A model generated the notes under the pieces. That model was not told the origin of the DNA and did no database searches. It was given only the letters and a program-made list of their open reading frames with translations. DNA of 58,017 nucleotides from a virus. The DNA is taken from positions 1 through 58,017 of the IMG/VR virus record IMGVR_UViG_3300044993_000766. One strand, written 5' to 3'. The translations under genes were made by a program, and so were the position numbers. Below are positions 11,720 to 40,848 of the stretch, one piece after another; position 1 is the first letter of the stretch, and each line of letters opens with the position of its first letter.

Positions 11720-11847
11720 CCTGCGCCTCCCTTATTCCCGTGGGCGGTGCCCACCGTTACCGGCCAAGGAAAGCATTGCTCAGAAGAATTGTCAATGGCA
11801 ATATTTATTTCTATCGGAAAGTCTCCAGGTCGAGTAGGATCGCGATC
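11720..11847. promoter_or_regulatory. Divergent regulatory region between the CsrA array and its neighbouring regulator
   Basis: A 128-bp gap between two divergent starts, clearly AT-richer than its surroundings near 11785-11815. Minus-strand TTGACA (11795-11790) and plus-strand TTGTCA (11789-11794) are -35-like and overlap each other; I see no convincing -10 for either. The imperfect repeat ATTGTCAATGGCAAT shares the ATTGAC half-site core with the CI/Cro palindrome at 57227-57244. Inference: the regulator at 11848 controls both itself and the array from here. Confidence 0.4.
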
Positions 11848-12510
11848 ATGAACAAGTACACCGAGGCTTTGGTCGCCGCGATGGGCAAGAGACGCATCCG
11901 CAGCCGGACGCTTGCTGCGGAAGTCGGCACGATCAGTGAAAACGCTATCGCGCAATGGCGCAGCGGCCGGCGTCCGGTCCCGGTCGAGTACGCACCCAAG
12001 CTGGCGAAGTTGCTTGGCGTACCGCCGCAGTCCATCAGCGAATCCTACGATCGACTTCTGCAATCCGGTGTCATCACGTCTGCGGAGGGCGGCCACGAAG
12101 CATGGGCAAATCCGCCTGCGGGCCATGCAGTCATTGAGCGATTGATAGGGTTTGGCCGTGCGGACGAACAGGAGCGGCTCTGGCTGCCGGAACTCATGCT
12201 GCGGCGGGAATTGGGCGCGACACCGATCGAGAATGTCCGTTGGGTCACACTACATTCGCGGACGATGGAACCGGAAATCAAACGCCATGCCGTGGTGCTG
12301 GTGGACATCAGCGCCACCCGGCATGAGGAGGTCGTCGATGGCCGACTGTACGCCTACTCGCTACTCGGGCGGTCAGATATTCGTCGGATCACGATTCGTC
12401 GGGATGCCTGGATACTGATCGGCGACAACGAAGAACGGATCAAGACCAGCGTACCTACCGCGGACTTGCCGGAGCTTCACTTGCTTGGCATGGTCATCGG
12501 CTGGCTATGA
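11848..12510 (+). CDS. CI/LexA-like transcriptional regulator with degenerate S24 domain
   Basis: 220 residues: an N-terminal helix-turn-helix (about 1-65; SENAIAQWRSGRRPVP is the recognition region) and a C-terminal LexA/S24-like beta domain (about 130-215). In active S24 repressors the catalytic serine lies in G-D/E-S-M; here the matching motif is SRTMEP, with Thr139 in place of Ser, and the usual catalytic Lys region reads DIRRITIRR. Both catalytic residues therefore appear to be replaced and RecA-stimulated self-cleavage is unlikely. ATG 11848 has AGGA 8 nt upstream; the longer in-frame reading to 11704 lacks support. Divergent from the CsrA array and followed by the MASE1 gene. Likely role: local repressor not directly tied to SOS induction. 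Confidence 0.8.
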   Translation: MNKYTEALVAAMGKRRIRSRTLAAEVGTISENAIAQWRSGRRPVPVEYAPKLAKLLGVPPQSISESYDRLLQSGVITSAEGGHEAWANPPAGHAVIERLIGFGRADEQERLWLPELMLRRELGATPIENVRWVTLHSRTMEPEIKRHAVVLVDISATRHEEVVDGRLYAYSLLGRSDIRRITIRRDAWILIGDNEERIKTSVPTADLPELHLLGMVIGWL

Positions 12511-14627: not shown

Positions 14628-14753
14628 GTTTTGCGCCCGCAAGATATAGCGTCTCCGGGGCTGTAGGACGGTAGCACCACCACACGTAGCGCAATGTGCG
14701 CATGCCACAGTCCGCCATCCAGTTCCCGTTACTGTCTGCGTTGGGTCATTCAC
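14622..14753 (-). CDS. Small Cys-rich peptide (43 aa) coupled to the giant gene
   Basis: GTG at 14753 opens 5 nt before the TGA of the giant gene ends (GTGAATGA), with AAGAAGG 9 nt upstream. The peptide begins VNDPTQTVTGTGWRTV and carries CAHCATCGG (CxxCxxC) plus a C-terminal Cys after a basic segment, suggesting a small zinc- or thiol-binding knuckle. The length, overlap and Shine-Dalgarno sequence are typical of small phage genes. No family recognised. Only its first few codons overlap the giant gene. Confidence 0.45.
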   Translation of the reverse strand: MNDPTQTVTGTGWRTVACAHCATCGGATVLQPRRRYILRAQNC

Positions 14754-23700: not shown

Positions 23701-26700
23701 GGCGTCCGGGTCGTCGAAGAACAGGCTACGGTTGGTCCGCGATGCGCTGAGGTGGCCGTATCGCTTGAGGAAGGCGTCATAGCGATCGTTGAGCAGACGA
23801 CGGTTGGCCTCGATCTGCGCCTCGCTCGCGTCCGCGGCGCGTTCCAGGCGCATCTGCTGGCGCAGCACGTCGCGAATCTCGATCATGCCGCGCATGCGCG
23901 CCTCGGCGGTCGCACCGGGCGCCGTCCACGGCGCCGCTTGCGGCTCGCCCATCCGGTCCTCGCCCCGGATCATGATCCGCCCCTCGGCGTCGATGAAGTA
24001 GGCGCCGACCTTCACCCCCTCGGGCACCGCACTGGCGGTCATCGCCTCGGTGCGGTCGATCGGGCTGTAGATGCCCTCCGGCAACGTCCGCGCCCATGCC
24101 GTCAGTTGCGCGGCCAGATCGCCGGAAGGGGCGACGGTGTAGTCGTTGGCCCGGTACATGGTGCCGCCGGCCGTCTGCGTGCCGAGGATATGATCCGGGT
24201 GATCGACGTACCAGGGGTTGATGCGGAAGGAGAACGTCTCGCCCGTGGTCGGGTGTTCTAGCGTCTGTTCGACGGTCTGCACCCAGCGCAGGCGCGCGGC
24301 CCGCGTGTCGTCGCTCGGCGGGTCGGTGTCCGGGGCGCGCTTCTGGAGCACGATGATATCGGTCACGACCTCGGTGCCGGCGTTCTCGGCGAACGCGGTG
24401 TCGGGCAGGCGCGCGGCGGCGATCAGATCCGCCCGCTCCGCGATCCACTGCCGCACGCGACTGTCTTTGGCGTCCAGAAACTGACGCGACACCACCATCA
24501 TCAGCACGCCGCCCGGCCGTAGCTTGTCGATCGACTTGGCGAAGAAGTAGTTGTGGATGCTGAAGCCCGAATACGGGCTGCGCTCAGAATCGACGATGGG
24601 TTCGCTACCGAAGGGCGGATTGCCGATCGCCACGTCGAAAAATTCGCTCGGGACCGCCACGTCCTGAAACCCGCTCTGGCGAATGTGCGCTTTCGGATAG
24701 AGCGCGGCGGCGATTTGCTGGGTCAGCGGATCGAGTTCGACGCCGTAGAGCGTGGAAGCGTTCCGCAGCTTCGCCGGCATCCCGCCGAAGAAATGGCCAA
24801 TGCCGACCGCCGGTTCCAGAATGCGCCCGCGGGTGACGCCCAGACGCACCAGTGCGGAGTACATGCCGTCGATCACGGGCTTGCTGGTGTAGTGGGCGTT
24901 GAGCGTGGACGCGCGCGCCGCGCGCCATTCGGCATCCGTCAGCAGGCCCTGAAGCTCGGCGCGGACTTTCGCCCATTGGGCATTGGCCGGATCGAAGACG
25001 CCCTTCAGCGCACCCCAACCGACGTAGCGCGCGAGTTGGCGACGCTCTTCCGGCGACGCCGGCCGCTGTTCGGCGGCCATCGCCTTGACGATGCGGATCG
25101 CAGCGAGATTGTCCCGCGCCTTGCGCGCGAGCCCGCCTTTGCCCAGATCGTCGGCCAAGCCCTCGACGGCCTGCTCGGCTGTATCCACTTCCGTCGCGGT
25201 GGCGGCGACAACGCCGGCCTCTGGCCCCGCGGCAGGCTCGGCCTGCGGCGACGCGGTCTCGGCCACAACGGAAGAGGCCGCAGGATCGTCGATCGCTGCG
25301 GCCTCTTGGGTCAGGCGCTCTCGCTGCCCGGTTCGGGCGGAGGGGGATCGTCGTCGTCGGTCGTTGGTGGCTCCAGCGACAACTCCCACACCTGCGCCTT
25401 CTCCCAGCTCGACAGATGATTCAGGCTCGTATCGGCCTTCGCCCGTTCCTCCTCGGCGGTCTGGTTCGCCAGCGCCTCCAGGTAGTATCCCGACCGGATC
25501 AGTTTCTGCACCCGCTTGGGCCAACCCAGCATCCAGCGGTTCGCGACCTCGCGCGCGGTCGGCGACATCGCCAGCAGTTTCGCGCGCACGTCGGGGGGAT
25601 AAAGTTTCGGTTTGACCAGTTCCTGCATCGGTGGTGTCCTCCGGGTTGGCCTCGTCCGATCGCGCAGCTCGCGCTTGTGGGAAGGTCGTAGTGTCAGTTT
25701 GCGTCGAAGCGCCGCCAGACGGAAGCGGCTCGGACGCGCGCGAGGGGCTCGCTGCGATCTGAATATCCGCCCACAGGCGGTTGGTGCTGCTGGAGAAGGT
25801 GACGATGCCACCATCCACTGCATAGCGCGCGCCGAACCGACCACCGCTGTTGACCGCGCCAGCCCGCTCGAACGCCGAGCGAAGCGCACCCAGCGCGTTT
25901 TCCACCTCGGTGACGTGGCTGAAGGTTGCCGGAAACGCCACCCGCCCCGGCTGACCGGAACGTACCTGAGCCACTAGATCGTCCACGAATGCGGCCAGGA
26001 TCGTGTCGTTGCCGCTTGGCGAAGGCGCGTCGCGCATCGCCCGCGATGCGTCCAATGGCGTCACCGCGTCGCGCCTCTCCATCGCGACAGGTGCTTCCTC
26101 TATGCCCGCAGCGCGGGCCGCCGAGGCTTCGATCTGCGGCTCGATCTTCGTCCATCGCTCCGACCACGGCACCTCACGGCGCTGCTCGATTTTGCCCTTA
26201 TGACTGACGGTGATCGTGGTATTGGGGTCCAAGCGCACCCAAGGGAAACCGGATTTCTCGTAGAGAGTGCCGCGCGCAGTCTCGGAGGTGCCCAGCAGTA
26301 GCGACATGGAGGTCGCCTGTACCCGATCGCCGATCGCGAGGCCCGCAGCAGCTAGCGCCTGCATCCGGCGTCCACGATGCCCGTCATTGGAGGCGTCGGC
26401 CAGTCGTTTGAGAATCGGAAATAGTCGGCCGTACTCTTGGGTCGCACGGTATCGTTTCAAACCGCCAAAGGCCCGCGCACGCTTCTCCTGCCACTGCCGC
26501 GCATCTGCATAGCTGGCGAAATCGGGGAAGGTTTCCACAGGCGCACGCTGTTCCGCCTCGCGCCGGGCGCGACGTTCGGCGTCGCGGGCCAGTTCTGTCG
26601 CGCGATCTGTGCCAGCCCAGCGAAAGATCGCGTCCTCCGTCGCGCCGCGTCCACGCGGCAGCCGGATACCGGTCGCCGCAGTGAACACTGCGCGACTGGC

Positions 26701-28920
26701 CGGATTCGCCTTCGCATCGCCCAGGTTGCGCGCGACCAAGCCACGCCCATTGCGGCGCTCGATCAAGTCGATCAGCTCATCTGCACTGCGGACGTAGAAC
26801 GCGCTATCCGGGTCGGTCACGTTCGGGAATTTCCGGCGCATGGTGTCGAGGAACACCGAATGTAACTCCGCGCGGTCCAGCGCCTCGACGGAACGAGGCG
26901 CATCGGGAGTTTCGTCATTGATTGCGCCTTCGGCCGTGGCGGCTGTGGTCACATCCGGTGGCGACACGGTGCCAGCCTCGCCAGCCCGTATTGCGCGCAG
27001 GGCTGCCGCCTCGGTATCGATGGCGTCAAGCTGTACCGCTGCCTGACGCGCTTGCGCAATCTGCGCCAGCATGCGCATATTGGCAACCTGCTCGGCAGGA
27101 TCGACCATGCCGGGCGCACGGTCCTTAGTCGCCTGCGCCTTCCGCTGCTCCCGTACACGGTCGATCAACGGATTCATCCGTGCGGCAGGCAGGCCTGGGT
27201 AACGAGTTTCGACGAAACGTCGCACGTCCCCGCGCGTCGGGCGCGGCTCGGCCTTCCAGTCGTTGAGGAAAGCGTGAATCGCAGCCATTACCGCCTCCGG
27301 CTCGGGCGGCGGAGTCAGGACTTCTCCGGTTTCTGGGTCGATGCCTTCCGGCACGGCCGCAGAGACAGGCGGGATCTGCGATGTTGCGCGCGAACTGGGT
27401 GTGGCCCCAACAGCAACATCCGTGCGCAGCGCGTGATCGCGTGCAGCCGCGCGTACATCCGGGCTCTGCCCGGTCGCCTCCAGGTTCCGTGCCAGTCGCA
27501 AGTCGGCCGCACGTTGTGCGTTCTGCTGCGAAGGCGTCGAGGCCACGCCCTCTGGCGTCACCAGAACCGGCGCACGCGGATCAACCGTGCCGAAACCCGG
27601 CTGGCCATCAGGGGCAGGCAACGCGAGCGGAGCAGGCGGCACCTCTGGTATCGGCCGGTTCGGAATGCCGCCCAATGCGCCATACACGCCACCGCCGATC
27701 GCGCCCGCCGCGAAGCTGTCCAGGTACTCCGTCAGCGCCTCGCCATCGGTCAGCGACTGCGCCGCACCAAAGCGCTGCGCGGCCTGCTGGACCGCTTCGG
27801 TCGTGCCCTCGGTCAGCGCATTCTTGCCGAATGCCGTGGTCATCCTCCGCGCGAGTCCACCCGTGCCGCCGACACCTTTCAGCAACGTATCGGCCAACAC
27901 CTTGTCGCCGAAGGTCTCCGCCGCCCCGTAAATCGCACCGCCCGCCAGCACGCGCGCGAGGTCGATTTCCCCGCCGGTCTCTTGCGTTTCGCCGTAAGCC
28001 GCGTTGTAAGTGTCGCCGAACCCGCGAGCCGTCGCGCCTGCCGCCAGCGCGGTCACGCTGCCGATCTCCCGCTGCAACGTGCGAGTCAGGAATTGCTGCC
28101 CCAGTGCCGCCGCTTCGCGTTTTGCGATGTCTTCCGCCGTGCCGGCGGCGATGCGCTTCGCCGCGTGTTCGGCGACCAGCGCCGCGGTGCGTTCACGCAG
28201 TTCCTTCTTGATCGCGGTCTTGCCGAGCAGGCCCGCAATCGCGCCTGTGATGTTGCCGAGGACCGGCACCTCTGAACCTGCCGCCGCACCGGCAGCAGCC
28301 GTGATGAGCGATTCGACGACGCTCGGCAGCATCTGACCCACATTGTACTGTGCCCAGTCGAACAAGTTACCGGTGGTGTCCAGCACACCTTCGCCGCTGC
28401 CCCACGCGCTGCTGAGGCTGTCGGTCGGGCGGGCTGTCGCGCCTATTTCCCGATTGAGCGCCTGGGCGCGCTCCGCCCAGCCGTGCGCGGTGTCATCGGC
28501 CCCAAACAGATCGGCAGCCAGCGCCCCAAGACCGTAGACCGAGGCTTTTGTGCCGGGCCAGTAACTTTTCACGCCGCGCACGAAATCGCCGTCATCGCTG
28601 GCCGTCACATGCGAAGGCGAAGGGTCTGGATTGCTCGCTCGAAACGCCGCTTCCATTTGTGCCAGATCGGTACCTGTCAAGCGCGCAACTTCCGGCAGTG
28701 CGAGCGTCACGTACTCGTTGCGGATTGCACGCTGCCGTTCCGGTGGCGCGGTGTCGTAGCCAGTGCGCGCCCGCACCTTGCCCCAGTGATACTTGTCGAT
28801 CACCTCAGGGGTGAAGGTCGGCGCCTGCGGCTTGTTCGCGCCATAGGCGATGTTCATCCAGTCGGGCACCGCCGGATTCCAGGTGCGCGGCGCGAGTGGG
28901 TTGTAGGGATCGGTCGCCAT
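14746..28920 (-). CDS. Giant phage polyvalent protein: DNA methylase, SNF2-type helicase, metallopeptidase and LPD domains
   Basis: 4724 residues, one intact frame. In order: a Gly/Ala-rich hydrophobic segment (about 197-235, membrane-penetration-like); low-complexity linkers; an N6-adenine methylase (ILEPAVGIGHFFG near 1369, catalytic NPPF at 1434-1437); an SNF2/DEAD-like helicase (VGAGKT ending at 2072, DELH at 2230-2233, TATGTPVSNS, and QREGRAIRRGNQ near 2785); a zinc-peptidase-like HEAIGHYG at 3215; an EIQSDWHQ-containing polyvalent domain near 3567; a long helical region; and an LPD38-like membrane-interacting C-terminal region from about 4230. Such proteins are packaged and injected to protect or remodel incoming DNA; Bcep22-type podoviruses carry one of about 4600 residues. 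ATG 28920 overlaps the transglycosylase stop (TAATG). A 105-codon gene lies inside it in another frame at 25311-25628. Confidence 0.93.
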   Translation of the reverse strand: MATDPYNPLAPRTWNPAVPDWMNIAYGANKPQAPTFTPEVIDKYHWGKVRARTGYDTAPPERQRAIRNEYVTLALPEVARLTGTDLAQMEAAFRASNPDPSPSHVTASDDGDFVRGVKSYWPGTKASVYGLGALAADLFGADDTAHGWAERAQALNREIGATARPTDSLSSAWGSGEGVLDTTGNLFDWAQYNVGQMLPSVVESLITAAAGAAAGSEVPVLGNITGAIAGLLGKTAIKKELRERTAALVAEHAAKRIAAGTAEDIAKREAAALGQQFLTRTLQREIGSVTALAAGATARGFGDTYNAAYGETQETGGEIDLARVLAGGAIYGAAETFGDKVLADTLLKGVGGTGGLARRMTTAFGKNALTEGTTEAVQQAAQRFGAAQSLTDGEALTEYLDSFAAGAIGGGVYGALGGIPNRPIPEVPPAPLALPAPDGQPGFGTVDPRAPVLVTPEGVASTPSQQNAQRAADLRLARNLEATGQSPDVRAAARDHALRTDVAVGATPSSRATSQIPPVSAAVPEGIDPETGEVLTPPPEPEAVMAAIHAFLNDWKAEPRPTRGDVRRFVETRYPGLPAARMNPLIDRVREQRKAQATKDRAPGMVDPAEQVANMRMLAQIAQARQAAVQLDAIDTEAAALRAIRAGEAGTVSPPDVTTAATAEGAINDETPDAPRSVEALDRAELHSVFLDTMRRKFPNVTDPDSAFYVRSADELIDLIERRNGRGLVARNLGDAKANPASRAVFTAATGIRLPRGRGATEDAIFRWAGTDRATELARDAERRARREAEQRAPVETFPDFASYADARQWQEKRARAFGGLKRYRATQEYGRLFPILKRLADASNDGHRGRRMQALAAAGLAIGDRVQATSMSLLLGTSETARGTLYEKSGFPWVRLDPNTTITVSHKGKIEQRREVPWSERWTKIEPQIEASAARAAGIEEAPVAMERRDAVTPLDASRAMRDAPSPSGNDTILAAFVDDLVAQVRSGQPGRVAFPATFSHVTEVENALGALRSAFERAGAVNSGGRFGARYAVDGGIVTFSSSTNRLWADIQIAASPSRASEPLPSGGASTQTDTTTFPQARAARSDEANPEDTTDAGTGQTETLSPRRARETAGDVADRARGREPLDAGLAQAGAETDPVGILPGGAGEPDRRGGTGEGRYEPESSVELGEGAGVGVVAGATNDRRRRSPSARTGQRERLTQEAAAIDDPAASSVVAETASPQAEPAAGPEAGVVAATATEVDTAEQAVEGLADDLGKGGLARKARDNLAAIRIVKAMAAEQRPASPEERRQLARYVGWGALKGVFDPANAQWAKVRAELQGLLTDAEWRAARASTLNAHYTSKPVIDGMYSALVRLGVTRGRILEPAVGIGHFFGGMPAKLRNASTLYGVELDPLTQQIAAALYPKAHIRQSGFQDVAVPSEFFDVAIGNPPFGSEPIVDSERSPYSGFSIHNYFFAKSIDKLRPGGVLMMVVSRQFLDAKDSRVRQWIAERADLIAAARLPDTAFAENAGTEVVTDIIVLQKRAPDTDPPSDDTRAARLRWVQTVEQTLEHPTTGETFSFRINPWYVDHPDHILGTQTAGGTMYRANDYTVAPSGDLAAQLTAWARTLPEGIYSPIDRTEAMTASAVPEGVKVGAYFIDAEGRIMIRGEDRMGEPQAAPWTAPGATAEARMRGMIEIRDVLRQQMRLERAADASEAQIEANRRLLNDRYDAFLKRYGHLSASRTNRSLFFDDPDASLLLALEFDYDAGVSETVAKREGIEPRAPKATKADIFRRRVLFPPSDFVTVHSARDAYLASLNYRGRLDLDYMTEVYGKDSTALVKELGPLVYETPDGNLVTADDYLSGDVKTKLVEAKDAARRDPRFARNVGALSKVIPRDKTPSEITIALGAPFLPAEDLQAFHREVTGANARMTYVRGSGLWLVNVVGEPDRVLNASTWGTKEMGATEIFQATLAGRAVVVTKTIKHGDGKIERIVLEAETERAREKQNALRAEWRAWVWRDPERAERLLALYNDKMNRTVERRYDGSHLTLPGMSPGLTLLAHQQNGVWRGLQSRQLLLDHVVGAGKTFQMVAIAMEMRRLGVARKPLFAVPNHLTVQWRTEFARLYPGAVVLAAEPDDFTRENRKKLFSRIVTGDWDAIIVGHSSLKKIGLPAETETRILTEQIDEIASLIEQMKRERGDRGIVRDMEGIRARLEAKVKQKLANIGQRDGVLTFDELGVDALFVDELHEFKNLFYTTAMSRVPGMGNPNGSDRAFDLFVKTQWLFGTLGDKAPLVTATGTPVSNSLVEMFNLQRYMQYPTLKRKDLHVFDAWARQYGSIENVYEVAPSGAGFRASTRFAKFQNLPSLMADYRAFADVVTLDDLKAQEAAKGGRFPVPNLLGGRPQIVVAERSPQVAEFMGVPHLARSEGGGVVFGFNPGRGETATIEEAEDGRFRVKIEVPGEAYPRALAVYPTREDAQMGIVEAALTPKIDLNPESILGRFARIRELTRQTKGRVNALSLTGQANKAGLDYRLIDPAAPDFRGSKINLALERMLALYRQWDADKGTQLVFCDLSVPNTARRSAATKPQRVYVREDDGSLAHASGTAHTVAGAEELPFLLVVRGAAARATTTVYDAATGRARRILPGGRDKGLAWAQETLRDPARRERWIAEREAEREAGQELSQAEIDDYNDANGFDAEAGDSLSLQDIVGLSGAEGFNVYDDLRAKLIAGGVPANEIAFIHDYPHPDAKDKLFKRVKSGEVRFLFGSTAKMGAGTNVQDRIVGLHHIDAPWKPSDLEQREGRAIRRGNQLYERDPDGFEVAIYRYATRQTYDTRRWQLLEHKARGIEQLRKYDGQQTEIEDIDGEAANAAEMKAAASGDPLILRETQLRHDVRRLEQLELAHADNQTALQRQARTAEQYAAMGGPRYLKALREVQAQVKQHPLPEDKEAVPGGTTLDGARFGERKALTQTIARRVGALIGPSDAASPVELAYRGVTFEIDRVHAQWVRVSSDLGEVTSYERGAQTFSATGLLTRLNNYIDRIGAEIVDTEARIENARGEAERFRAEAAKPFEQTQALREAREQYRRVQRLLLVRGPEIPEHERPMLDAALEAQRSALREAGFSDALDELLDYQQQRDDDAGAFSKRRNPAAAGASVAQVQRVVDEMLVDWKGAPVVRVVATPDYLPASARRAPDVHLAEGYYARSTGTVYLVASALPNRRAVQRVLIHEAIGHYGIETIVGPAQWAQIAEGVHRLREKGRYRDLFAEHARRGYLDNGWDSTAIAEFIAILAERGVKDSVLDRVVAAVRAFLRKLGVRWTLSEAELRQLVMRAARQVRLGGSERALSLKESMAPAFSRVEGFRSALLQALERAQGAPRRGTAEQWQQWLDGVQRRGGFKQAERDWLDVDVWLTTRESVTGEARITREALTDFVRTHQVRIGEQQIGGDVARYDAALDRLQAAGFEIETLPSYGVALMRDGQEVDERTLTESQRHDLETLSAGIETTAPFVSAEGRYASYQMEGGREYRELLLTFPVQPSSRNPDEPFHSEHYPSVKNVLVHIRYNEREDVDGKRMLFIEEIQSDWHQHGRRYGYRPSADRNVAPDAPFKSTEDWTLLAIKRMVRMAAERGFQRIGWTTGAQQTSRYSRGEQVDAIDYMPMPSGAFRVAGLKQGDVVREMEVPANLLSSLLGAKVAARVRAGEGDLSPRGSSRGTPLRRLDALSLHLGDAGMGGYYDGILPAVVNRWARPLGGQAKTAQIRPRFRSPPLDVHALDITPAMRTAVAEGLPMFSRRAPEGFLADVDAVVRQDEDASRLDRVRQWLRDSTPAKLKDASRSVWLGALATNHLTELGSDYDPAIAGFSRQLDAMSADRNALLEEGADLAESVRRWAGRHKAEAKRLFDLMHRATLEGVDPAEAYQVLQFRYGGQLHDANRKNIREALKALREQMLGRSADNKIDMMEEARRLRGMPGREESRKRIYPTLRAQWQALSPEAQGFYRQMRNLYRDRSQQVEDALAQRIEASEAPDGLKRKLVFSIRQQFETHRLQGVYFPLQRYGEYFIAAERDGEPVFLMLDSPAALERREAAFKARGFAVKARGRLRGAQAKDAPSGSFVADVIEQLRKAGVSEKTQDAIYQTYLQTLPELSMRKHAIHRQGVAGFDPDALRAFAHNMAHGAHQLARLRYGHVLERTLADLREAQDIRRREPDTDTRAVVAMDAILGELDQRHQWVLNPQDSAMTNRLSSIGFVYFLGVTPAAALVNLTQTAVLTFPQLASQFGPANAMRHLMRAMNDSARTAGHAQKVLKRPDEVKAHAALQQAGVLDKTQTHALMGLAEGGLATYNPKLARAMELIGWLFHTAEVLNREASGMAAYRLARDAGQSFDAAVRFAADTITATHFNYSNANRARYLQSGPAKIVLMFKQYGLNMLWHLGRMGWKATRGDSPEVRRLARRNLAGVLVMSGFFSGAMGLPMASLSIGVIDAIAHAFGDEDDPWDTEAEIRKFLAQFLGEAGAEVAMNGAANTLTGADIASRVEMSQLLWRDADRELDGRDAYYAMMDNVAGPMFGIAKNFFVGTQLIAEGQVYRGVETMLPKALKDAMKALRYAEEGVTSTRGDLVTDTDFKDEFLQAIGFTPAEVARQYAVNRALKDRERHILDRRKALLAAYAMALRMDDQDAALEVRRKILAFNKAYPEKPITGQTIRRSLRAREAYSKRAENGVAYDAALRQRIAEEEGVGGE
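25311..25628 (-). CDS. Embedded gene (105 aa) in an alternative frame inside the giant ORF
   Basis: The frame begins MQELVKPKLYPPDVRAKLL at ATG 25628 with GGAGGA 7 nt upstream. The product has the composition of an ordinary helical protein: TAREVANRWMLGWPKRVQ, SGYYLEALANQTAEEERAK, SSWEKAQVWEL, then an acidic/Pro tail. Over the same bases the giant frame (about residues 1098-1204) encodes G/E/R/P-rich low complexity that looks like an out-of-frame translation. Small proteins of this LYPP...GWP type next to methylase/helicase genes of mobile elements seem familiar to me, but I cannot name the family. Two readings: a true overprinted gene, or an ancestral small gene whose DNA was absorbed as a linker when flanking genes fused. 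Confidence 0.65.
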   Translation of the reverse strand: MQELVKPKLYPPDVRAKLLAMSPTAREVANRWMLGWPKRVQKLIRSGYYLEALANQTAEEERAKADTSLNHLSSWEKAQVWELSLEPPTTDDDDPPPPEPGSESA

Positions 28921-33020: not shown

Positions 33021-33046
33021 CGAAAAACCCCGCCGAAGCGGGGTTT
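33021..33046 (-). terminator. Rho-independent terminator-like hairpin
   Basis: Stem AAACCCCGC / GCGGGGTTT (33025-33033 with 33038-33046), loop CGAA on the plus strand (TTCG on minus). On the minus strand the stem runs into a TTTTTCG tract. It lies between the 282-aa accessory gene and the 152-aa virion gene, so it could end the accessory block transcript or be read through by antiterminated late polymerase. Confidence 0.7.
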
Positions 33047-33066
33047 GCGTATGCGTAGCGGGAATA

Positions 33067-33816
33067 TTATTGCTCGAAATCCGTGAGGCGGGCCTGTCGA
33101 AAAGGCTCGAAACCAATCAATTCCAGAAGCATTGCCCCCAGGTGCGTGATCTCGCGCCGGACTCGAAACTTTCTGCCGCCCCATTCCATCTCGGGAACAC
33201 CATTGGCGCCCGTTGAGAGATGATCTTCCATCAAACCAAGCTGCACAAGATGACTGAGATAGCTCTCCTTGAGCGCCGAAGCGGCCATGCGCGCGTTGTC
33301 CGATGGATAGTCTGCCACCACCTTCGGTTCAAGAATCTCTCGGTGCAAGCCCTGAAATTCGTGATGCCCTCTGAAACTGTTGCCCGCATAGTGCCGCAAC
33401 CACACGATTTCGACATCGTTCAACTCTCCCAGAATGCGAAGCAAATGACGGCTATCGTGCTCATCAATCTGTTCTTGGGTCATTTCCGTTGAAAGCACTG
33501 CCGCCAAATACGCCCTGCGTTGATCGCTGGTCGCCCGCGCGGCCTGCCTGACGACCTCCTCAGCCAGCTCCAGAAAGTGGTCGTCGCTCCATTTCCGCTT
33601 TGTCACTTCGCTTTCTATTCCTGCCAGCCGACGATCAAGCTCGGCAGCGAATTTCGCGACGCGATCCAAACGCTGATTCGGAATCGCTATCCCTGCCAAT
33701 TCCGCCAGGATGGACCCCGCAAAAGGCACTGCCCCCAAGAGCGCTTTACTCGCCACGACGGCATGGTCGTGACCGGAGTTTTTCAACTCATCTGGCATAG
33801 AATCATCGTTTGACAT
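33067..33816 (-). CDS. Accessory protein of unknown function in the late operon
   Basis: 249 residues from ATG 33816. A short hydrophobic/Gly-containing segment (SKALLGAVPFAGSILAELAG, about 21-40) precedes helical, charged sequence (RVAKFAAELDRRLAGIESEV; ATSDQRRAYLAAVLSTEM). A His-rich patch HYAGNSFRGHHEFQGLH lies near 150, and the C-terminal ~80 residues look winged-helix-like (SHLVQLGLMEDHL, FRVRREITHLGAMLLEL). The AVPFAGS segment is seen in some small membrane-active or toxin-like proteins; that is only a resemblance. It is 82 nt downstream of the 217-aa membrane gene, and the pair interrupts the order tail protein to internal proteins, as expected for a moron. Confidence 0.65.
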   Translation of the reverse strand: MSNDDSMPDELKNSGHDHAVVASKALLGAVPFAGSILAELAGIAIPNQRLDRVAKFAAELDRRLAGIESEVTKRKWSDDHFLELAEEVVRQAARATSDQRRAYLAAVLSTEMTQEQIDEHDSRHLLRILGELNDVEIVWLRHYAGNSFRGHHEFQGLHREILEPKVVADYPSDNARMAASALKESYLSHLVQLGLMEDHLSTGANGVPEMEWGGRKFRVRREITHLGAMLLELIGFEPFRQARLTDFEQ

Positions 33817-33898
33817 TGAGCGATACCCCGCCAAGATCGGAATTACTCTCTGAAAGAGCGAAAGGCTTGAATATCGACCACATCGGCGCGACAGCGCA

Positions 33899-34552
33899 CT
33901 AGCCTGCCGCTTCAACCGCCTTGACGTGACTGGAAGCGCGCTTACGCCCCTTGGTCAACTCCGCAAGTACGCATTCGGCTAAGGGATAACGCTGATCCAG
34001 TTCCTCGACCAAACGCTTGGCCGCTTCAATGCATAGCGCAAGCCACGTAAAGACTGGCGTGTAGATCAGTCCCACCACGGCGATGGCCACGAGCAGGCCG
34101 GGCGATGCAAAGGGCGTATAGATCAAAATCGCCGCAATGATCCACGGGGAAATCGAAATCAGGTGAAGCCCTCTGGCGGTCCATTTCAGACTAGGCCGCG
34201 CAAAGTAACGGTTGTCAACGAACCCCGAACCGTCGGAGTCAAGGCGAACGATACCGAGCGCGTACTTGCAGTCGCTTAGCATGCGCATCGAATTGTGCCT
34301 GGAGAGCGCCATCTTGATCGCTCGACCGTCCAGCACACAGCGAAACGCATCGGACACCGCAATTTCCCACGCGATGGGATCAGCATGACGCCATCGACCC
34401 GATTTGGTCAGGTCATACAAACGCTTCATGCGCTCTTTCGACAATCGAAGCGCAAGACTGCGAACCTTGTAGAGCAGCAACAGTCCGAGTATCGGCAATA
34501 CGAGCGCCAGCACCCAAGGATAGCGTTCGACCACACCCCCTAACCAGCTCAT
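33899..34552 (-). CDS. Accessory membrane protein
   Basis: 217 residues with an N-terminal TM helix (about 12-28, VLALVLPILGLLLLYKV) and a hairpin of two TM helices (about 128-175, WIIAAILIYTPFASPGLLVAIAVVG). Between them is a cytosolic-looking segment of about 100 residues (KERMKRLYDLTKSGRW), and after them a basic, Lys/Arg-rich tail. No family recognised. The codon usage is less GC-biased than in the structural genes around it. Encoded with the 249-aa gene inside the late operon, it is a candidate superinfection-exclusion or defence component. No function is asserted. Confidence 0.65.
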   Translation of the reverse strand: MSWLGGVVERYPWVLALVLPILGLLLLYKVRSLALRLSKERMKRLYDLTKSGRWRHADPIAWEIAVSDAFRCVLDGRAIKMALSRHNSMRMLSDCKYALGIVRLDSDGSGFVDNRYFARPSLKWTARGLHLISISPWIIAAILIYTPFASPGLLVAIAVVGLIYTPVFTWLALCIEAAKRLVEELDQRYPLAECVLAELTKGRKRASSHVKAVEAAG

Positions 34553-34766
34553 TGCGGATCATCCTCTGAGAAACTCGAACTCGCTTATTTGCACGACCAC
34601 CGTCTCAAACCATGAGAATGGTAGGCAATGCCGCGTGCAGCGCCTTGCCGTCAGCGGGGGCCGTGCCCGACGGCCGTCCGGGTTGGGCGGCCAATGGCCC
34701 CGGACCTGACGAGAGACAGATTAGCCATCTGCGCCTGCCTTTGGAATCGGACATCGGCTCCTCTGA

Positions 34767-34786
34767 GGGTAGGAATTTTCCTACCC
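34767..34786. repeat. Hairpin overlapping the stop codon of the tail gene
   Basis: GGGTAGGA ATTT TCCTACCC: an 8-bp perfect stem with a 4-nt loop. The right arm contains the TAG stop of the 557-aa tail gene. No T-tract follows on either strand. It could protect or attenuate the late transcript just before the accessory pair. The remaining gap to 34552 shows nothing coding. Confidence 0.45.
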
Positions 34787-36454
34787 CTCCGCGAGTTCGG
34801 CGATGCTGCTGGCGATGTGAAGCTCCCGCAGCACGCCTTTGTCGGGTGATTCCGGCCGTTCGACCTCGATCTCGAACCCCAGGTGCCGGCTCAGGTGCGG
34901 CAGGCGGAACGGGTTGGAATGACGGATTTCGCGCTCAAACCGTAGCCGGTCGTCGGCCCACAGCCTGAATGTGGTCGCGGGGGTGGCTTCGCCCCAGTCG
35001 CCCCGGAACGGATGCGCGTCCCAGACCACCTTCGCCGCCGCCCAGTTGATATGCCCCGGCATGACCGTGCAACGGGTCCGGTAGCGCAGAGGCAGGTAGG
35101 TGCGGCCGGCGTTCCACTGGCCGATGCCGGTCGGCAGCGCCAGGAACAGCGCATCGGTACGACTGCGGTGCAGCGCGGTCGGTCGCAGCGACAGGGCGAT
35201 CAGCCCCAACTGCCGACCGGGATAGGTCGGATCGGTCAGATCGAGCATCCAGCCGCTATTCGCGGTGAAACCGAACCACAGCCCATCATGGACGGCGGCG
35301 AGCAGCGTCTCCGGCCGCAGGGCCGCGAAGTCATCCTCACCCCAATACGCCTGGCTCACGCGCTGGCACTGGCGACCCGAGAGCAACACCAGCCCATCCC
35401 GGCCGGCGTAGAGCGCGCCACCGCTTGGGGTTGTCGCCATCGAGCGGCGCGCTACGCAGGGCATCGGTTCGGGCATCCGAAACACCTCGCGCCTGCCCCA
35501 CTCGTCCGCCTGCGGCGCGATCCAGTAGGGGTGCCCGTCCGTGGCCACGTACAGCCCGCTGTCGGTCCAAGCCAACGCGACGATCGTGTCGTCCAGGTGC
35601 AGGCGGTAGGCATCCGGCCACGCATGGAACTCGTGCGGCTCGCAGACCCAGAGGTCGCGACCCACGGCACCGGCCAATTGCGTGCCGTTCGGCTCGGGGA
35701 CCAGATGGGTCAGTCCTTCCGGCGGCGGGGCGAAGCGCATGGTGGTCAGCGGTTCGCCCAGATCGAGATTCGGTAGGGCATCGTTGACGCCGCCGGCCGC
35801 CGCCAGGAACTCTCCAACTAGGTGAAACTCCTCCATGCGCGGCAAGCCGATCTGCTCGGCCCCGGCATCGCTCGCGGTCAGGCGGTAGAGCCGCAGCGCC
35901 TGCACGTCCCAACCGCCGACCGGCGCGCCGTCCCACTGCACCCGAACGGCGGCACCGTCGTCGATCTTGAACCGCACGCTCGGCAATGAGGGCGGCCCCT
36001 CGTTCCCGAAACGATCCACATACGTCACCACGTAGGCCCGGTACTCGCTGCGCTGGTCGTTCGGCCCGGCCCAGCCCGGCGGCGCGCTGGGGGTCGCGAT
36101 CGGCGGCGTCGGCACAGGCAGACCCAACCGCCACCAGCGTCCGGCCACGGCGTCCGCCGCATCGGCCCAGACAGGGAAGCGCAGATCCTCGCCGACCGCG
36201 ATCACGCGCGGGCAACCGGGCAGACCGGAGACAAGATCATCGACGCCGGGCAGGACGATCCAGCCAGCCTCCGTCCGGTAGATTGTGCGATGTGGCACCC
36301 CACGCGGATCGACCGGTAGCGGTGTGGGATACGCCTCGATGGTGCCGTGCCACAGGTTGACGTTCTCGGCCCAGATCGCCTCATTGCCCTGCAACAGCGT
36401 GTGGTTGAGCCGAGGACGCATGCCGGCAAAGACGGTTTTCTGGAGTGAGGGCAT
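34781..36454 (-). CDS. Tail tubular protein B-like / tail structural protein
   Basis: 557 residues, beta-rich and repetitive with many Trp and Pro, no signal peptide. It begins MPSLQKTVFAGMRPRLN and has GLPVPTPPIATPSAPPGW followed by an Ig/FN3-like segment (YVVTYVDRFGNEGPPSLPS, about 145-165), then beta-propeller-like repeats (LWVCEPHEFHAWPDAYRL; LYVATDGHPYWIAP; ALYAGRDGLVLLSG). This matches the tail-tubular-B or nozzle proteins of podoviruses. In the late gene order it follows the connector genes and precedes internal virion genes, although two accessory blocks now flank it. Its ATG is 52 nt from the opposing protease gene start. Confidence 0.7.
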   Translation of the reverse strand: MPSLQKTVFAGMRPRLNHTLLQGNEAIWAENVNLWHGTIEAYPTPLPVDPRGVPHRTIYRTEAGWIVLPGVDDLVSGLPGCPRVIAVGEDLRFPVWADAADAVAGRWWRLGLPVPTPPIATPSAPPGWAGPNDQRSEYRAYVVTYVDRFGNEGPPSLPSVRFKIDDGAAVRVQWDGAPVGGWDVQALRLYRLTASDAGAEQIGLPRMEEFHLVGEFLAAAGGVNDALPNLDLGEPLTTMRFAPPPEGLTHLVPEPNGTQLAGAVGRDLWVCEPHEFHAWPDAYRLHLDDTIVALAWTDSGLYVATDGHPYWIAPQADEWGRREVFRMPEPMPCVARRSMATTPSGGALYAGRDGLVLLSGRQCQRVSQAYWGEDDFAALRPETLLAAVHDGLWFGFTANSGWMLDLTDPTYPGRQLGLIALSLRPTALHRSRTDALFLALPTGIGQWNAGRTYLPLRYRTRCTVMPGHINWAAAKVVWDAHPFRGDWGEATPATTFRLWADDRLRFEREIRHSNPFRLPHLSRHLGFEIEVERPESPDKGVLRELHIASSIAELAEG

Positions 36455-36512
36455 AATTCAGGCTTGATGTGCACGATGGCCGATTCCCGGCCACCCACAG
36501 GACACCTTGGAC

Positions 36513-37607
36513 ATGAACACGTCCGCGCAACCGGATGCAGACGACGGGAAGACACCGGAACCACCGCTGCCGCCATCGACAGTGCCGGCAACGACCACGT
36601 TGAACCTGCGTGGCTTGGGTTCGGATGCCGAGTGGAACGAACGCTTCGCCGGCAACCTTCGCTATGTGATCGTCGAATGTGGAAGATTCATGGACCTGCA
36701 TCTGCTGGAAGGCGTGACGGTGGGTTTCGATTACAACGATGCGTTGAACTCTGTGGACCTCGGCTACGAATCGTCTGTCGCCAAGGGATACACGAACGAA
36801 GAAGGTTTGATCGGCGTCGGCAAGCTGCTCCGGGTTCGTCGCGACGACGGCATCAAGGCGCATATCGTCATCGATGCGGGGGTTCTGCACCTCCTCGCAG
36901 AGCCCGAACACCCGTTGTTCCTGTCCACGGCGAACATCCTCGCGCATGAACTGGCGCATGTGAACGTGATGCAGTGGTTCATCGAACACAGCCCCGGCAT
37001 CCTGCTCGAACGTCCCGAAGGCGATTGGGCAACCTATGTGATGCGCGATACCGCTCACATCGTCTGGGAGGAATACGCCGCCTGTCGCTTGAGCGCCAGA
37101 ATTTCCGGCGATCAGGTGATGGAAAACTATGCGAAGAATGTCGAAATCTCGATGGCCGGCGCCGTCCAGAACGCCCGTGAAAGCATCAAGACCTACCGCA
37201 CGCACGGTGATCGTGGACGACTGCTGACCGAAACTCTGACCGCCATCGCCAAGCCCATCAAGATGCTCGCCTATCTGCTCGGACATCTTGATGGGCTGGA
37301 TCGAGAGGCTGACCTCAAAGCCATCGCGCCTGCTTGCGATGGCGACGAGCTATCCCCCGCCGTACTGATCGTGCATGACGCCTTGCGTCAAGCATGGGAG
37401 ACGCGGCACGACTGGCAAGGCATGAAGGGCGTGGACGGGGTCGTCAACGCATTGCTGCGCGCGATGGAGATTGCGGGCATCCAGCTTCGCCTCAGCGAAG
37501 AAGGCGATGGCTCGATGATCCACGCCCCGTTCACTGCGGCCACCCTGCCCAATGGCGAGGCGGATATGGCCATCATCCGGCTCCAGCGCATGCTGGAGCC
37601 GGAATAA
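36513..37607 (+). CDS. Zinc metalloprotease-like protein (HExxH), partner of a HEPN protein
   Basis: 364 residues from ATG 36513; an in-frame TTG at 36507 with AGGA 4 nt upstream is an alternative. The N-terminus is Pro-rich. The catalytic region has NILAHELAHVNVMQ (HExxH, about residues 146-150) and, about 40 residues later, WEEYAACRLSA, which can supply the third zinc ligand Glu as in gluzincin-type peptidases. The C-terminal part is helical. It lies on the strand opposite the surrounding late operon and is followed after 22 nt by the HEPN gene, so the two form their own transcription unit. Inference: a toxin/antitoxin or abortive-infection pair in which protease and RNase-like proteins act together. 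Confidence 0.75.
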   Translation: MNTSAQPDADDGKTPEPPLPPSTVPATTTLNLRGLGSDAEWNERFAGNLRYVIVECGRFMDLHLLEGVTVGFDYNDALNSVDLGYESSVAKGYTNEEGLIGVGKLLRVRRDDGIKAHIVIDAGVLHLLAEPEHPLFLSTANILAHELAHVNVMQWFIEHSPGILLERPEGDWATYVMRDTAHIVWEEYAACRLSARISGDQVMENYAKNVEISMAGAVQNARESIKTYRTHGDRGRLLTETLTAIAKPIKMLAYLLGHLDGLDREADLKAIAPACDGDELSPAVLIVHDALRQAWETRHDWQGMKGVDGVVNALLRAMEIAGIQLRLSEEGDGSMIHAPFTAATLPNGEADMAIIRLQRMLEPE

Positions 37608-37629
37608 GCGAGTTCACTCAGGGAACGAC

Positions 37630-38223
37630 ATGGCAATCATGGCCATACTCCTACGCACCCACTTCTCCCTCCATCATGCGCAAGCGGCCACTTTCCACGC
37701 GCGTCAAGCAGCGAATATCGCGCTGGATGGGACAGAGGAGGCTGCGATCGCCCTGGGCGCACACGTCTCGGCGGCCGTGATCTCCGCTGGTGCATTTCTG
37801 GAAGCCACCATCAACGAAATCAGCGAGAACGACGAGCGCAGCGGCGCTTTGGAGCGTCTGAACACCTATCTCAAGGCGCATCACGCCAAGGGCATTCCAA
37901 AGAGCGATCCGCGCTGGCGATCAGCCAAGACCTTGATGGACCTCCGCAACCGACTTGTGCATTACACACACGACTGGCTGGACGAAGGTTCAGATAACAT
38001 GATTGGCGAAAAGGCGCTCAATAAGTCCACGCTTCTGACGCGCATGCAAAAAGAATTTGCATTCCTTCCACCACCAGTAAATTACATTCCACGATTCCTG
38101 TCGCCGGACTGCGCAGCGTGGGCCATCGGCACTGCGACAGCGCTTCTGGATGAGTTCTTTCAGCGACTTAACTCGGAACCCTTTTTCAACCATTTACGAG
38201 ACCGCATCGAAGTTAAACGATAA
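37630..38223 (+). CDS. HEPN-domain protein (putative RNase), partner of the metalloprotease
   Basis: 197 residues from ATG 37630. The HEPN signature is LMDLRNRLVHYTHDW (about residues 103-117), an RNxxxH motif inside a helix, the active-site motif of HEPN ribonucleases and related proteins. The upstream helices (GAHVSAAVISAGAFLEATI) fit the four-helix HEPN core. HEPN proteins are common RNA-cleaving effectors of toxin-antitoxin, abortive-infection and CRISPR systems, though some are non-catalytic. It sits 22 nt after the metalloprotease gene and converges with the GIY-YIG gene (29-nt gap). The longer in-frame reading upstream overlaps the protease gene and is not supported. Confidence 0.78.
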   Translation: MAIMAILLRTHFSLHHAQAATFHARQAANIALDGTEEAAIALGAHVSAAVISAGAFLEATINEISENDERSGALERLNTYLKAHHAKGIPKSDPRWRSAKTLMDLRNRLVHYTHDWLDEGSDNMIGEKALNKSTLLTRMQKEFAFLPPPVNYIPRFLSPDCAAWAIGTATALLDEFFQRLNSEPFFNHLRDRIEVKR

Positions 38224-38252
38224 CGATCACCATGCCCATAATCGGCTTCATA

Positions 38253-38891
38253 TTACATCAAGATATGCAGGGGCATTGAAACTTCATCGCGCCGCAGATC
38301 ATGTGCAATGGCCATGCGAAGACTAAGGCGATCCCGCATCTGCGCCGAGTCGAAGTTGGCTATTTCCGCCACTGCATTCTCGAAGATGGCCGAATCAAAC
38401 CATTCCTTATGCCCATAGGCCCCGAACGGCACGGAATGCGGCGGTTCAGTCCTCGCGAACTGAAAACGCTTTTTTGCCATTCTCTCGGCCGCCAAAGCGC
38501 TTGCCTTGTCACCGCCGAAGTAGATGCCGACACTTCGGTCAAGATCAAAGTCGCAGTTGAACTGAGCGGCCCGACTGGTCCAGTCACCGGAGCAACCCAA
38601 CTTTAGCTTCGAGCTGGCCGGGTCTAGCAGCAAATAGACTCGATAGAGCGGCACATTGACCGGCGCGTAGATTCTGCTCGGAACACGGACCCGGTAGAGC
38701 TTCAGAAGTGCGGAAACGAAAATCATGGAGCCAGGATGCTTCATACTGTACTTCGCGGCGCTACGCTCCACTTTTGCCGACCCGATTTGTTCGATCAGGT
38801 ACAGCAGCCGGCGGGCATCCATCTCATTTTCAACGTGGACATCGAAATGATGGGCCGGCAACTTCGGGTGGAATGGACTTATCCTGTTCAT
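38253..38891 (-). CDS. GIY-YIG nuclease-like protein (T5orf172 type)
   Basis: 212 residues. The C-terminal half shows the GIY-YIG pattern: YRVYLLLD for the GIY strand, KLKLGCSGDWTSRAAQF for the YIG strand and catalytic-Arg helix, AAERMAKKRFQF for the following helix, and GHKEWFDSAI, in which the Glu of EWF is the metal-binding position of the family. GIY itself is degenerate (VYL), as often in this subfamily. The N-terminal ~75 residues are unassigned (FHPKLPAHHFDVHVENEMD). Inference: a homing or anti-phage nuclease, or a remnant. It is convergent with the protease-HEPN unit and the three form a compact 2.4-kb accessory block in the late operon. Confidence 0.65.
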   Translation of the reverse strand: MNRISPFHPKLPAHHFDVHVENEMDARRLLYLIEQIGSAKVERSAAKYSMKHPGSMIFVSALLKLYRVRVPSRIYAPVNVPLYRVYLLLDPASSKLKLGCSGDWTSRAAQFNCDFDLDRSVGIYFGGDKASALAAERMAKKRFQFARTEPPHSVPFGAYGHKEWFDSAIFENAVAEIANFDSAQMRDRLSLRMAIAHDLRRDEVSMPLHILM

Positions 38892-38989
38892 TGTTAGCCG
38901 CGATCGTTAGTCTGCCTGGGTAATGCTCGAAGCACGAAGCAGATGCAGACTTCAGTTGGACCACAAAATATCGAACAGGGCGGGATAGG

Positions 38990-39487
38990 TCATCGCCTCA
39001 CAACCCGCCCTGTAGCTCCACAAAGCCTCACCCATATCGTCAGTGCCGTTACTTCACAGCCTTCTACAGCCACGCGCCCATGATACCAGCCTGCCGGCGC
39101 TTCGGTCAGATCGTGGTCGATGATGAACGTCGCGACGCCGCCCACGATGGATTCTGCAATGTAGGTCTTCGAGGGCGGCGGCACGACAACCGGCAATCCA
39201 CCATCGCAAGGGCGACACCGCGCCAGCGTCGGCGCCCACTTGCCACAATCGCCGCAATTCGATTCGCCACAGCCGCCACATCCACCCCAGCGGCCTTCCA
39301 TCACGTCATCCGCGCGCGGGTACCGCGGCGTGCAGGCATCCGCGCGGTCCAGCACGGGCTGACACACGCTTTCGCCCTTGCGGGTGACGGTCAAGGTCAC
39401 GTTCGTCACATGGACGGTTGCGCAGTCGCGCATCAGCAGGACATGCAGGCGTTCGGTGTTCGGCTCGACGATCAGCGGACGGGCCAT
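38990..39487 (-). CDS. Cys-rich late protein, putative structural
   Basis: 165 residues. The central part is unusually Cys/Gly-rich (GGCGGCGESNCGDCGKW, then ARCRPCDGG, about residues 68-96), enough for a zinc site or disulfides. The flanks are beta-rich (VHVTNVTLTVTRKGE; SIVGGVATFIIDHD). It follows the connector genes and precedes the tail protein, with the accessory block now between. Start ATG 39487, with the AGGAG of the preceding intergenic bases close by. No family recognised; a tail or head-completion role is only positional inference. Confidence 0.7.
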   Translation of the reverse strand: MARPLIVEPNTERLHVLLMRDCATVHVTNVTLTVTRKGESVCQPVLDRADACTPRYPRADDVMEGRWGGCGGCGESNCGDCGKWAPTLARCRPCDGGLPVVVPPPSKTYIAESIVGGVATFIIDHDLTEAPAGWYHGRVAVEGCEVTALTIWVRLCGATGRVVRR

Positions 39488-39496
39488 GCGCTTCTC

Positions 39497-40141
39497 CTAA
39501 ATGGCAAAGTCGCCGCGTTCCGGCACCATCGCCCGCGCGCCGCCCGTGCGACCACGCAGGCGTCGCGTGCGGGCGCGCAGGATGGCGGCGTCGAAGCGTT
39601 GGCTGTAGACGGCTGCCAAGCGGGGATCACTGAACGGGTGCCCAGGCAACAGCAACACATCCGCGAGCCCGCCCTCGACCAGCGCGCGCCCCCACTCCTC
39701 GGCGAGCCGTGCATCGAGCCGGCAGGCATCGTGACGCGGCGCGGCGACGTAGCGCACGCGCAAGGTGTCGCAAGTATCGCCGTCGCGATCGATCCAGACC
39801 GACACATCCGGCGTCTCCAACGCTTCCACCCGGAAACCGCAGCCCGTTTCGATCACGTCCCGGCGCGGATCAAGCATGCTCTCATCAGGCATGCCGCATC
39901 CGATCGACACCGCGACAATGCGCACCACACGCTCGCAGTCTGCCGGCACCACCGGGTAATCGCGCACCCCGCAGGCCATCGGCAATGCCGCCTCGCGTTC
40001 CAGCCATCCGCTGGCTTCGCAGAACCGGATCGCCGCATCGCGCAAGTAGCTGTGTGCCGCGACATCGGGCAAGCCCGGCGTGGCAGCGACCATACGGGCC
40101 AGGAACGGCGCGAAGTCGGTGAAGCCCGGCCCGCAACTCAC
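39497..40141 (-). CDS. Head-tail connector / tail protein
   Basis: 214 residues from GTG 40141, overlapping the upstream stop (GTGA); the longer frame reading to 40306 runs over the neighbour. An alpha/beta protein with FAPFLARMVAATPGLPDV, SYLRDAAIRFCEASGWLERE and RVRYVAAPRHDACRLDARL near the C-terminal half, then a basic end. The pattern of an N-terminal helix-rich domain, beta-rich middle (VRDYPVVPADCERVVRIVAV) and C-terminal EEWGRALVEGGLADVLLLP resembles connector proteins of podoviruses. Gene order between the tail-tubular-A-like gene and the Cys-rich gene supports a structural role. Confidence 0.65.
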   Translation of the reverse strand: MSCGPGFTDFAPFLARMVAATPGLPDVAAHSYLRDAAIRFCEASGWLEREAALPMACGVRDYPVVPADCERVVRIVAVSIGCGMPDESMLDPRRDVIETGCGFRVEALETPDVSVWIDRDGDTCDTLRVRYVAAPRHDACRLDARLAEEWGRALVEGGLADVLLLPGHPFSDPRLAAVYSQRFDAAILRARTRRLRGRTGGARAMVPERGDFAI

Positions 40142-40848
40142 GGCTGCGCCCCTTCCGGCGCGCGCCCGGCCTGCGAGACTGCGACAAGCCGTTCCTTCGC
40201 CTCGGAGACGCCGAGCATGGCGTAGAAGTGCTGACGGTGCGCTTCCTGCTTGGCGAAGGACTGCGCCGATTCCATATCGACGCTGTAAGCGCGGTACAGC
40301 ATCCATTCGATCAGCGCATTGTGCATGCGCGCGGGCGTGACCAGCCGATCATTGCGCGGATCGGCATCGTCGATTTGCGCGAGCGTCATCGCCTCGGGGG
40401 ATTGCTGGCACACCAGGGCGACGGTGTACGCCTGCCCGTCGTCGGGTACGGGCGGATCGACGAAGAACGCGCGCGGGTCTTGCGGCGTGAAGCTGTAGCC
40501 GCGCACGCGGTAGTCTCCGCAGACGCTGACCGGCGCGCAGCCGGTGTCGGCGAACGCCTGCAACAAGCCGTCATCGACCTTGCGCGCGCGACCGGCATCG
40601 CCCGCCGACCCGATGATTTTCTGCAACTGGCAACCCTCCGGCAGCGGACCCTGTCGCGCACCCGGCACCAGGGCGAGCACGTCCGTCTGTGCGTACAACT
40701 CCGGCCGGTACAGATAGACCTGTCGCTGGGCGTCGTTGAGGTAGTCCAGCAGATCGGCACGAGTCCAGCGGATGTGCTCGAAGCCCGGTTCGGCATCGTT
40801 GAGCAAGCGCGCGACTTCGCCGATTAGCGCCGCCGCGAACTCGGCCAT
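40138..40848 (-). CDS. Tail tubular A / head-tail adaptor-like protein (DUF6682-like)
   Basis: 236 residues. N-terminal helices AALIGEVARLLNDAE and WTRADLLDYLNDAQRQVYLY are typical of gp11/gp4-type connectors of podoviruses, followed by beta-rich sequence (VRGYSFTPQDPRAFFVDPPV) and terminal helices (MHNALIEWMLYRAYSVDMES; AHRQHFYAML). I recall similar proteins as DUF6682. It would form the ring between portal and tail nozzle. ATG 40848 is adjacent to the upstream stop, and its own stop overlaps the next GTG. Confidence 0.7.
   Translation of the reverse strand: MAEFAAALIGEVARLLNDAEPGFEHIRWTRADLLDYLNDAQRQVYLYRPELYAQTDVLALVPGARQGPLPEGCQLQKIIGSAGDAGRARKVDDGLLQAFADTGCAPVSVCGDYRVRGYSFTPQDPRAFFVDPPVPDDGQAYTVALVCQQSPEAMTLAQIDDADPRNDRLVTPARMHNALIEWMLYRAYSVDMESAQSFAKQEAHRQHFYAMLGVSEAKERLVAVSQAGRAPEGAQP

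Follow-up and report, generated by a model that had tools for sequence, protein, structure and literature searches.

Why would a temperate phage carry, inside its block of late genes, two genes that run against all the others around them? The question is raised by a 58-kb virus record (hereafter the window, taken at its full length of 58,017 nucleotides), in which a gene with an HExxH motif (36513-37607, plus strand, 364 aa) is followed by a gene with an RNxxxH motif (37630-38223, plus strand, 197 aa). The two products, predicted to be a metal-dependent protease and an RNA-cutting protein, probably help the host to resist rival viruses; the pair could serve another moron function instead.

The locus and its phage

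An earlier note on this DNA had described two co-directional genes opposite to the surrounding late genes, and both open reading frames and their orientations are confirmed. The HEPN gene begins 22 bp downstream of the protease stop codon, in the same direction, and the pair opposes all neighbouring late genes, every one of which lies on the minus strand. Several flanking genes belong to head, packaging or virion families, the head genes lying beyond position 39487. The phage itself is temperate, as the note supposed, since it encodes an integrase, a CI-like repressor, a Q-like antiterminator, a DnaB-like helicase and an O-like protein. The features relevant here are the following.

1-1239: integrase
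11704-12510: CI-like repressor
33046-34649: cargo slot I, which in the window holds the next two genes
33067-33915, minus strand: slot I gene, 282 aa; weak Abi_alpha match (E 0.081), not accepted as an assignment
33899-34552, minus strand: slot I gene, 217 aa, without any match
34781-36454, minus strand: internal virion protein, conserved left flank (phrog_511, E=5e-78)
36431-39025: cargo slot II, delimited by blastn breakpoints; in the relatives L057-L061 the late genes on either side are conserved and the content is non-homologous
36513-37607, plus strand: predicted HExxH metalloprotease of phrog_11743, with an alternative start at an in-frame TTG (36507)
36945-36959, plus strand: HELAH (H145, E146, H149), residues 145-149, predicted metal ligands and catalytic Glu
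37071-37073, plus strand: E187 of WEEY, predicted third metal ligand, invariant in homologues
37630-38223, plus strand: HEPN-domain protein, predicted RNase from motif conservation and predicted fold
37945-37962, plus strand: RNRLVH, residues 106-111, predicted HEPN catalytic motif (R106, H111)
38253-38891, minus strand: T5orf172/GIY-YIG-like gene (PF10544, E=0.011, below cut-off), the third gene of the slot II cargo, running with the late genes and missing in L004/L056
38990-39487, minus strand: late gene without assigned function, conserved right flank, within which the homology of relatives resumes
39497-40306, minus strand: late-region gene

Elsewhere in the window, one open reading frame of 4724 aa (14746-28920, minus strand) takes up a quarter of the record.

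Two cargo slots among the late genes

The virion protein of the left flank was found in seven virus records at 89-100% identity, one of them identical to the window. When L057-L061 are aligned to the window by blastn, homology ends at 36425-36458 and returns at 39026-39030, and in all six non-identical relatives it is also broken between about 33045 and 34650. Beside the slots the flanks of L057-L061 keep about 83-86% nucleotide identity and the cargo is not alignable. Base composition follows the same division, with a G+C content of 55-60% in the cargo versus 65-69% in the late genes. The contents of the slots, based on longest-ORF calls in the relatives, are as follows.

Slot II, window: the protease-HEPN pair and the T5orf172 gene
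Slot II, L056 (same contig as L004): the protease-HEPN pair alone
Slot II, L057: little content
Slot II, L058 (5566-7830): a 432-aa HEPN-motif gene (RNSFMH) and a GMSGGPV serine-protease-like gene on opposite strands, the latter product with a weak LmuA match (2.8e-4)
Slot II, L059: a transglutaminase-like peptidase gene
Slot II, L060: a TnsA-like nuclease (1.2e-12) fused to sigma-70 region 4
Slot II, L061: a Schlafen AlbA_2 gene (1.1e-18)
Slot I, L056: a HEPN-motif gene
Slot I, L057, L059 and L061: a CoiA-type nuclease (4e-5, Pfam run on the L057 copy)
Slot I, L058: a complete type II restriction-modification system, with a C5-methylase (PF00145, 1.5e-59) and an Eco29kI nuclease (PF09517, 2.4e-64)

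Most of these cargo genes have no assigned function, and the restriction-modification system of L058 is the only already named system among them. The strongest evidence for a role in defence is the location of the pair at an exchange site in a group of prophages, one of which has taken up a known defence system as well. The initial description of the pair as a moron of a temperate phage agrees with this picture of exchangeable cargo, the slots of relatives holding restriction-modification and other defence-type genes. A more specific reading would make slot II a site of protease-linked immunity, with the window pair acting as a protease-gated HEPN RNase, the cargoes of L058 and L059 as unrelated versions of the same principle, and late antisense transcription as the off-switch; we regard it as unlikely.

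The predicted protease

The product of the upstream gene is a member of phrog_11743 (E=1.3e-28), a PHROG without assigned function. Residues H145, E146, H149, E187 and Y188 are invariant among 18 divergent homologues, the majority of which share 21-31% identity with the window protease, and because the HExxH and Glu residues are so conserved the motif is more than a chance occurrence. The HExxH with a downstream Glu, which had first drawn attention to this gene, is present as HELAH and E187 and, at the level of sequence, is a gluzincin-like metalloprotease layout. The AF2 model of the protein (pLDDT 84.5) has zincins among its nearest solved structures, including the M1 aminopeptidase 4z7i (Z 7.7), M61 and MMPs, all with Z below 8, and Foldseek returned no match for it at E<=0.001. 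Since the structural matches of a good model reach only Z 7.7, a zincin fold of the protease is likely rather than proven. The M34-type and talin rows obtained with the same model were set aside, their Z being under 8, and a sigma-factor match of the protein (E 0.11) is noise. Pfam, NCBIfam and PADLOC gave the protease no significant name, none of them having a model for it, and a tblastn search of phage records with either the protease or the HEPN protein gave no match.

Homologues with about 20-42% identity are found on plasmids of Rhizobium, Agrobacterium and others (33 plasmid records), in sphingomonads, Rhodanobacter and others, and in other phages. A single one of 5,426 E. coli genomes carries a homologue, inserted cleanly as a 1.1-kb block downstream of the tape-measure gene, and related E. 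coli prophages are without this block at exactly that point. In phages L017-L020 a homologue also follows the tape-measure gene and runs in the same direction. These co-directional positions in L017-L020 and in the E. coli prophage would suit a virion or late lytic role, with the protease packaged in the particle or taking part in its assembly. The window protease, however, opposes the late genes, many homologues reside on plasmids and the related E. coli prophages cleanly lack the gene, so that we consider such a function highly improbable.

Two variations on the family were also observed. The 710-aa fusion encoded at 742-2874 of L076 matches the protease family in its C-terminal half and has lost the HExxH motif, making it an apparent pseudo-protease. 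In the rhizobial loci L010, L025, L032, L035, L038 and L039, two protease paralogues are separated by one gene (DUF5677 in L010); upstream lies an XRE-HExxH gene and downstream one of HipA type, an arrangement that is recurrent.

The predicted HEPN protein

In the product of the downstream gene, R106 and H111 of the RNxxxH motif are invariant in nine divergent homologues, including those of Streptomyces and haloarchaea, and are found in sequence A2 as well; the motif is more than chance for this reason. The AF2 model, built from five sequences only, is all-helical (pLDDT 72.1) and locates RNRLVH in a long helix spanning residues 94-120. The top 17 rows of its structural list are HEPN-fold entries, led by 2hsb (Z 9.9, rmsd 3.2 A, 120 residues aligned) and with HEPN toxins at Z 8.3, values to be read with the reservation that a Z < 13 between helical bundles may reflect a common arrangement and that a predicted model was compared. 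Foldseek alone gave no significant match for this model, and the protein itself matches no curated profile in Pfam, NCBIfam or PADLOC. Its relatives L005-L007 match the helical bundle and the motif of PF18735 (HEPN_RiboL-PSP) with E values from 6.5e-4 to 0.023, all below the gathering score (20.1 bits for L005, against a cut-off of 28.4). An MTase_II match of the HEPN protein (E 0.044) is noise.

On its own the motif would be a poor argument for a HEPN protein, whereas the fold combined with the conservation makes a good one. The gene at 37630-38223 is thus predicted to encode an RNase with a HEPN-like fold carrying RxxxxH, and the initial proposal that this motif lies within a HEPN fold is supported by a predicted structure that matches HEPN entries first.

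Relatives of the HEPN protein occur in three unrelated phages (L005, L006 and L007), all without the protease, on plasmids of Streptomyces, haloarchaea and Achromobacter, and in a small number of genomes from the order and family to which a Rhodanobacter-like centre genome belongs. As these relatives occur without the protease, the HEPN protein is the likely effector. Two remnants lacking the N-terminal part (L088, 4220-4882, and L089, 4252-4890) read through a tRNA-like sequence, and the one in L089 adjoins an integrase-like gene; both are probably decayed cargo at an integration site.

One machine or two genes?

Outside the window lineage the pair is kept only in L004/L056, with 77% and 84% identity to the window and a gap of about 16 bp. 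Between the window and L004, dN/dS is 0.23 for the protease and 0.15 for the HEPN gene, indicating purifying selection on both. The synonymous divergence of the pair (dS 0.58-0.72) exceeds that of the flanking genes (0.35), so the cargo has a history of its own.

The earlier note had gone further and suggested a sensor or activator role of the protease towards the HEPN protein. In such a true two-component system the metalloprotease would be the sensor or switch, cleaving the HEPN protein or its inhibitor and thereby releasing or quenching the RNase. The short gaps between adjacent, co-directional genes in the two phages with the pair, and the retention of both genes together under purifying selection, speak for this arrangement. 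The distribution of the two families speaks against it. No HEPN relative was found near the protease in the 39 protease loci outside the lineage (several of them near-identical, and usually with 5-6 kb on each side), and no protease near the HEPN relative in the 14 HEPN loci. Among 247 genomes, apparently of one bacterial family (two samples), five carry the HEPN gene, three the protease and none both, and the HEPN relatives of other phages do without the protease. Class-level random genome samples are thin (HEPN in 0/369, the protease only in the centre genome); the samples at the level of order and family gave relatives. A literature search for HEPN proteins with a metalloprotease in anti-phage operons found none. 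Since in these loci and genomes the two families never come together outside the lineage, an outcome that the note itself had named as refuting, the proposed coupling is weakly founded and we hold it to be doubtful; this result bears on the coupling and leaves the role in defence as it was. That two genes are neighbours in one phage lineage does not show that they form one machine, and the protease and the HEPN protein need not do so.

Known and candidate defence genes near each family

The three closest proteases outside the phage group (38-42% identity) are those of L075, L091 and L008. In L075 the protease lies 110 bp downstream of an AAA_13 ATPase matching PADLOC PDC-S06 (5.7e-302) and runs in the same direction, and in L091 it is convergent with another PDC-S06 ATPase (3.4e-210). 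On the Kosakonia plasmid L008 it belongs to a cassette that runs from an integrase through a HEPN/Toprim gene, HEC-08 (4.1e-143) and a 455-aa gene to the protease itself. PDC-S06 and HEC-08 are candidate rather than proven defence systems. In many protease loci none of the neighbouring genes is a recognised defence gene, and defence neighbours were counted without matched control genes. On the side of the HEPN family, a remnant in L078 adjoins a CBASS cyclase and a SAVED-HNH effector.

These neighbourhoods also bear on two further readings. The protease could be an ImmA-type regulator cleaving the repressors of its own or other mobile elements, with the HEPN gene as unrelated cargo, a view that accords with the presence of the HExxH protein on many mobile elements and of XRE-HExxH proteins two genes away in the rhizobial loci. 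The window protease, however, has no adjacent HTH gene and is far from the repressor at 11704-12510, and its nearest relatives adjoin candidate defence ATPases; this role is very unlikely. Alternatively, the pair could ensure prophage maintenance by toxin-antitoxin-like addiction rather than act primarily against phages, the protease controlling a HEPN toxin. The match of the HEPN model to HepT/HEPN toxins would fit, as would the many protease homologues on plasmids, some of them beside HipA/XRE genes. Against this, the neighbours are the HExxH gene and the T5orf172-like gene, with no MNT partner or other known antitoxin, and the HEPN family is present in phages and on archaeal and Streptomyces plasmids without a shared neighbour, so that addiction appears quite unlikely.

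A model for the pair

The slot and its variable content, the conservation of the active sites, the purifying selection and the predicted HEPN-like fold can all be read from the sequence. We favour, with moderate confidence, the view that the pair is accessory anti-phage cargo of a temperate phage, swapped as a block in a late-gene slot, with the HEPN protein as an abortive-infection RNase and the protease as an independent or facultative component. Most likely, the predicted HEPN protein is self-contained in this role, and the protease is a second defence gene, independent or facultatively coupled. The closest protease relatives adjoin candidate defence ATPases and HEPN-type defence genes and not the HEPN family of the window.

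In a lysogen, the HEPN protein would stay inactive until some component of an infecting phage sets it off. It would then cleave RNA through R106 and H111 and stop the infection at the cost of the cell, as the prophage HEPN system Tha does. The putative protease probably cleaves a protein of the infecting phage or of the host, either by itself or together with partners that vary from one element to the next. Upon induction of the resident phage, the leftward late transcript would run antisense across both genes and reduce their expression, thereby helping the phage to escape its own defence. Expression in the lysogen from a promoter of the pair's own, which the note had suggested, is read from gene orientation alone. 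A scan of 36300-39100 for sigma-70-like promoters and terminators found no match, a result that says little because it is about what shuffled sequences give.

Known systems and significance

The closest worked-out precedent for the window HEPN is Tha, found in S. aureus prophages (PMC11087260). This HEPN RNase responds to the tail proteins of infecting phages; its gene is transcribed from the cI promoter, and during induction both opposed transcription and a small inhibitor, the product of the antisense gene ith, hold it back. Like Tha, the window HEPN is prophage-encoded by a gene set against lytic transcription, so that the lytic programme can lower it; unlike Tha, it lies in the late region, where no inhibitor gene was recognised. 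A search of 50,697 phage records, which may or may not include Tha-bearing phages, gave no match to the window HEPN or to its L007 relative.

HepS, encoded by the Salmonella Gifsy-1 prophage, has a role in phage defence. It is a prophage HEPN protein like that of the window, to which its structure (PDB 9oij) matches with Z 4.6, below the HEPN toxins, and no sequence relation between the two was found. AbiV (PDB 9bj7, 9bj6), a HEPN RNase that belongs to a two-component anti-phage system from lactococci, matches with Z 7.0 over 132 residues, again with no sequence match.

The defence hotspots of P2-like phages and P4-like satellites are sites where many different defence genes alternate between conserved phage genes (PMC9122126). 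The window group similarly combines conserved flanks with alternative cargo, and differs from those hotspots in belonging to another phage group, in having two slots inside the late block and in holding one named system, of type II restriction-modification. The two late-gene cargo slots of this uncultivated temperate phage group are thus added to the known reservoirs of anti-phage genes. The protease family is unnamed in domain and defence libraries, yet it recurs as a clean late-region insertion and beside candidate defence ATPases. The HEPN subfamily, which spans proteobacteria, Streptomyces and haloarchaea, could easily be tested. In the late region of the phage L007, a GmrSD_N (DUF262) gene (6.4e-20) and a 221-aa gene with an RNASAH motif, at 3882-5722, lie beside the HEPN relative.
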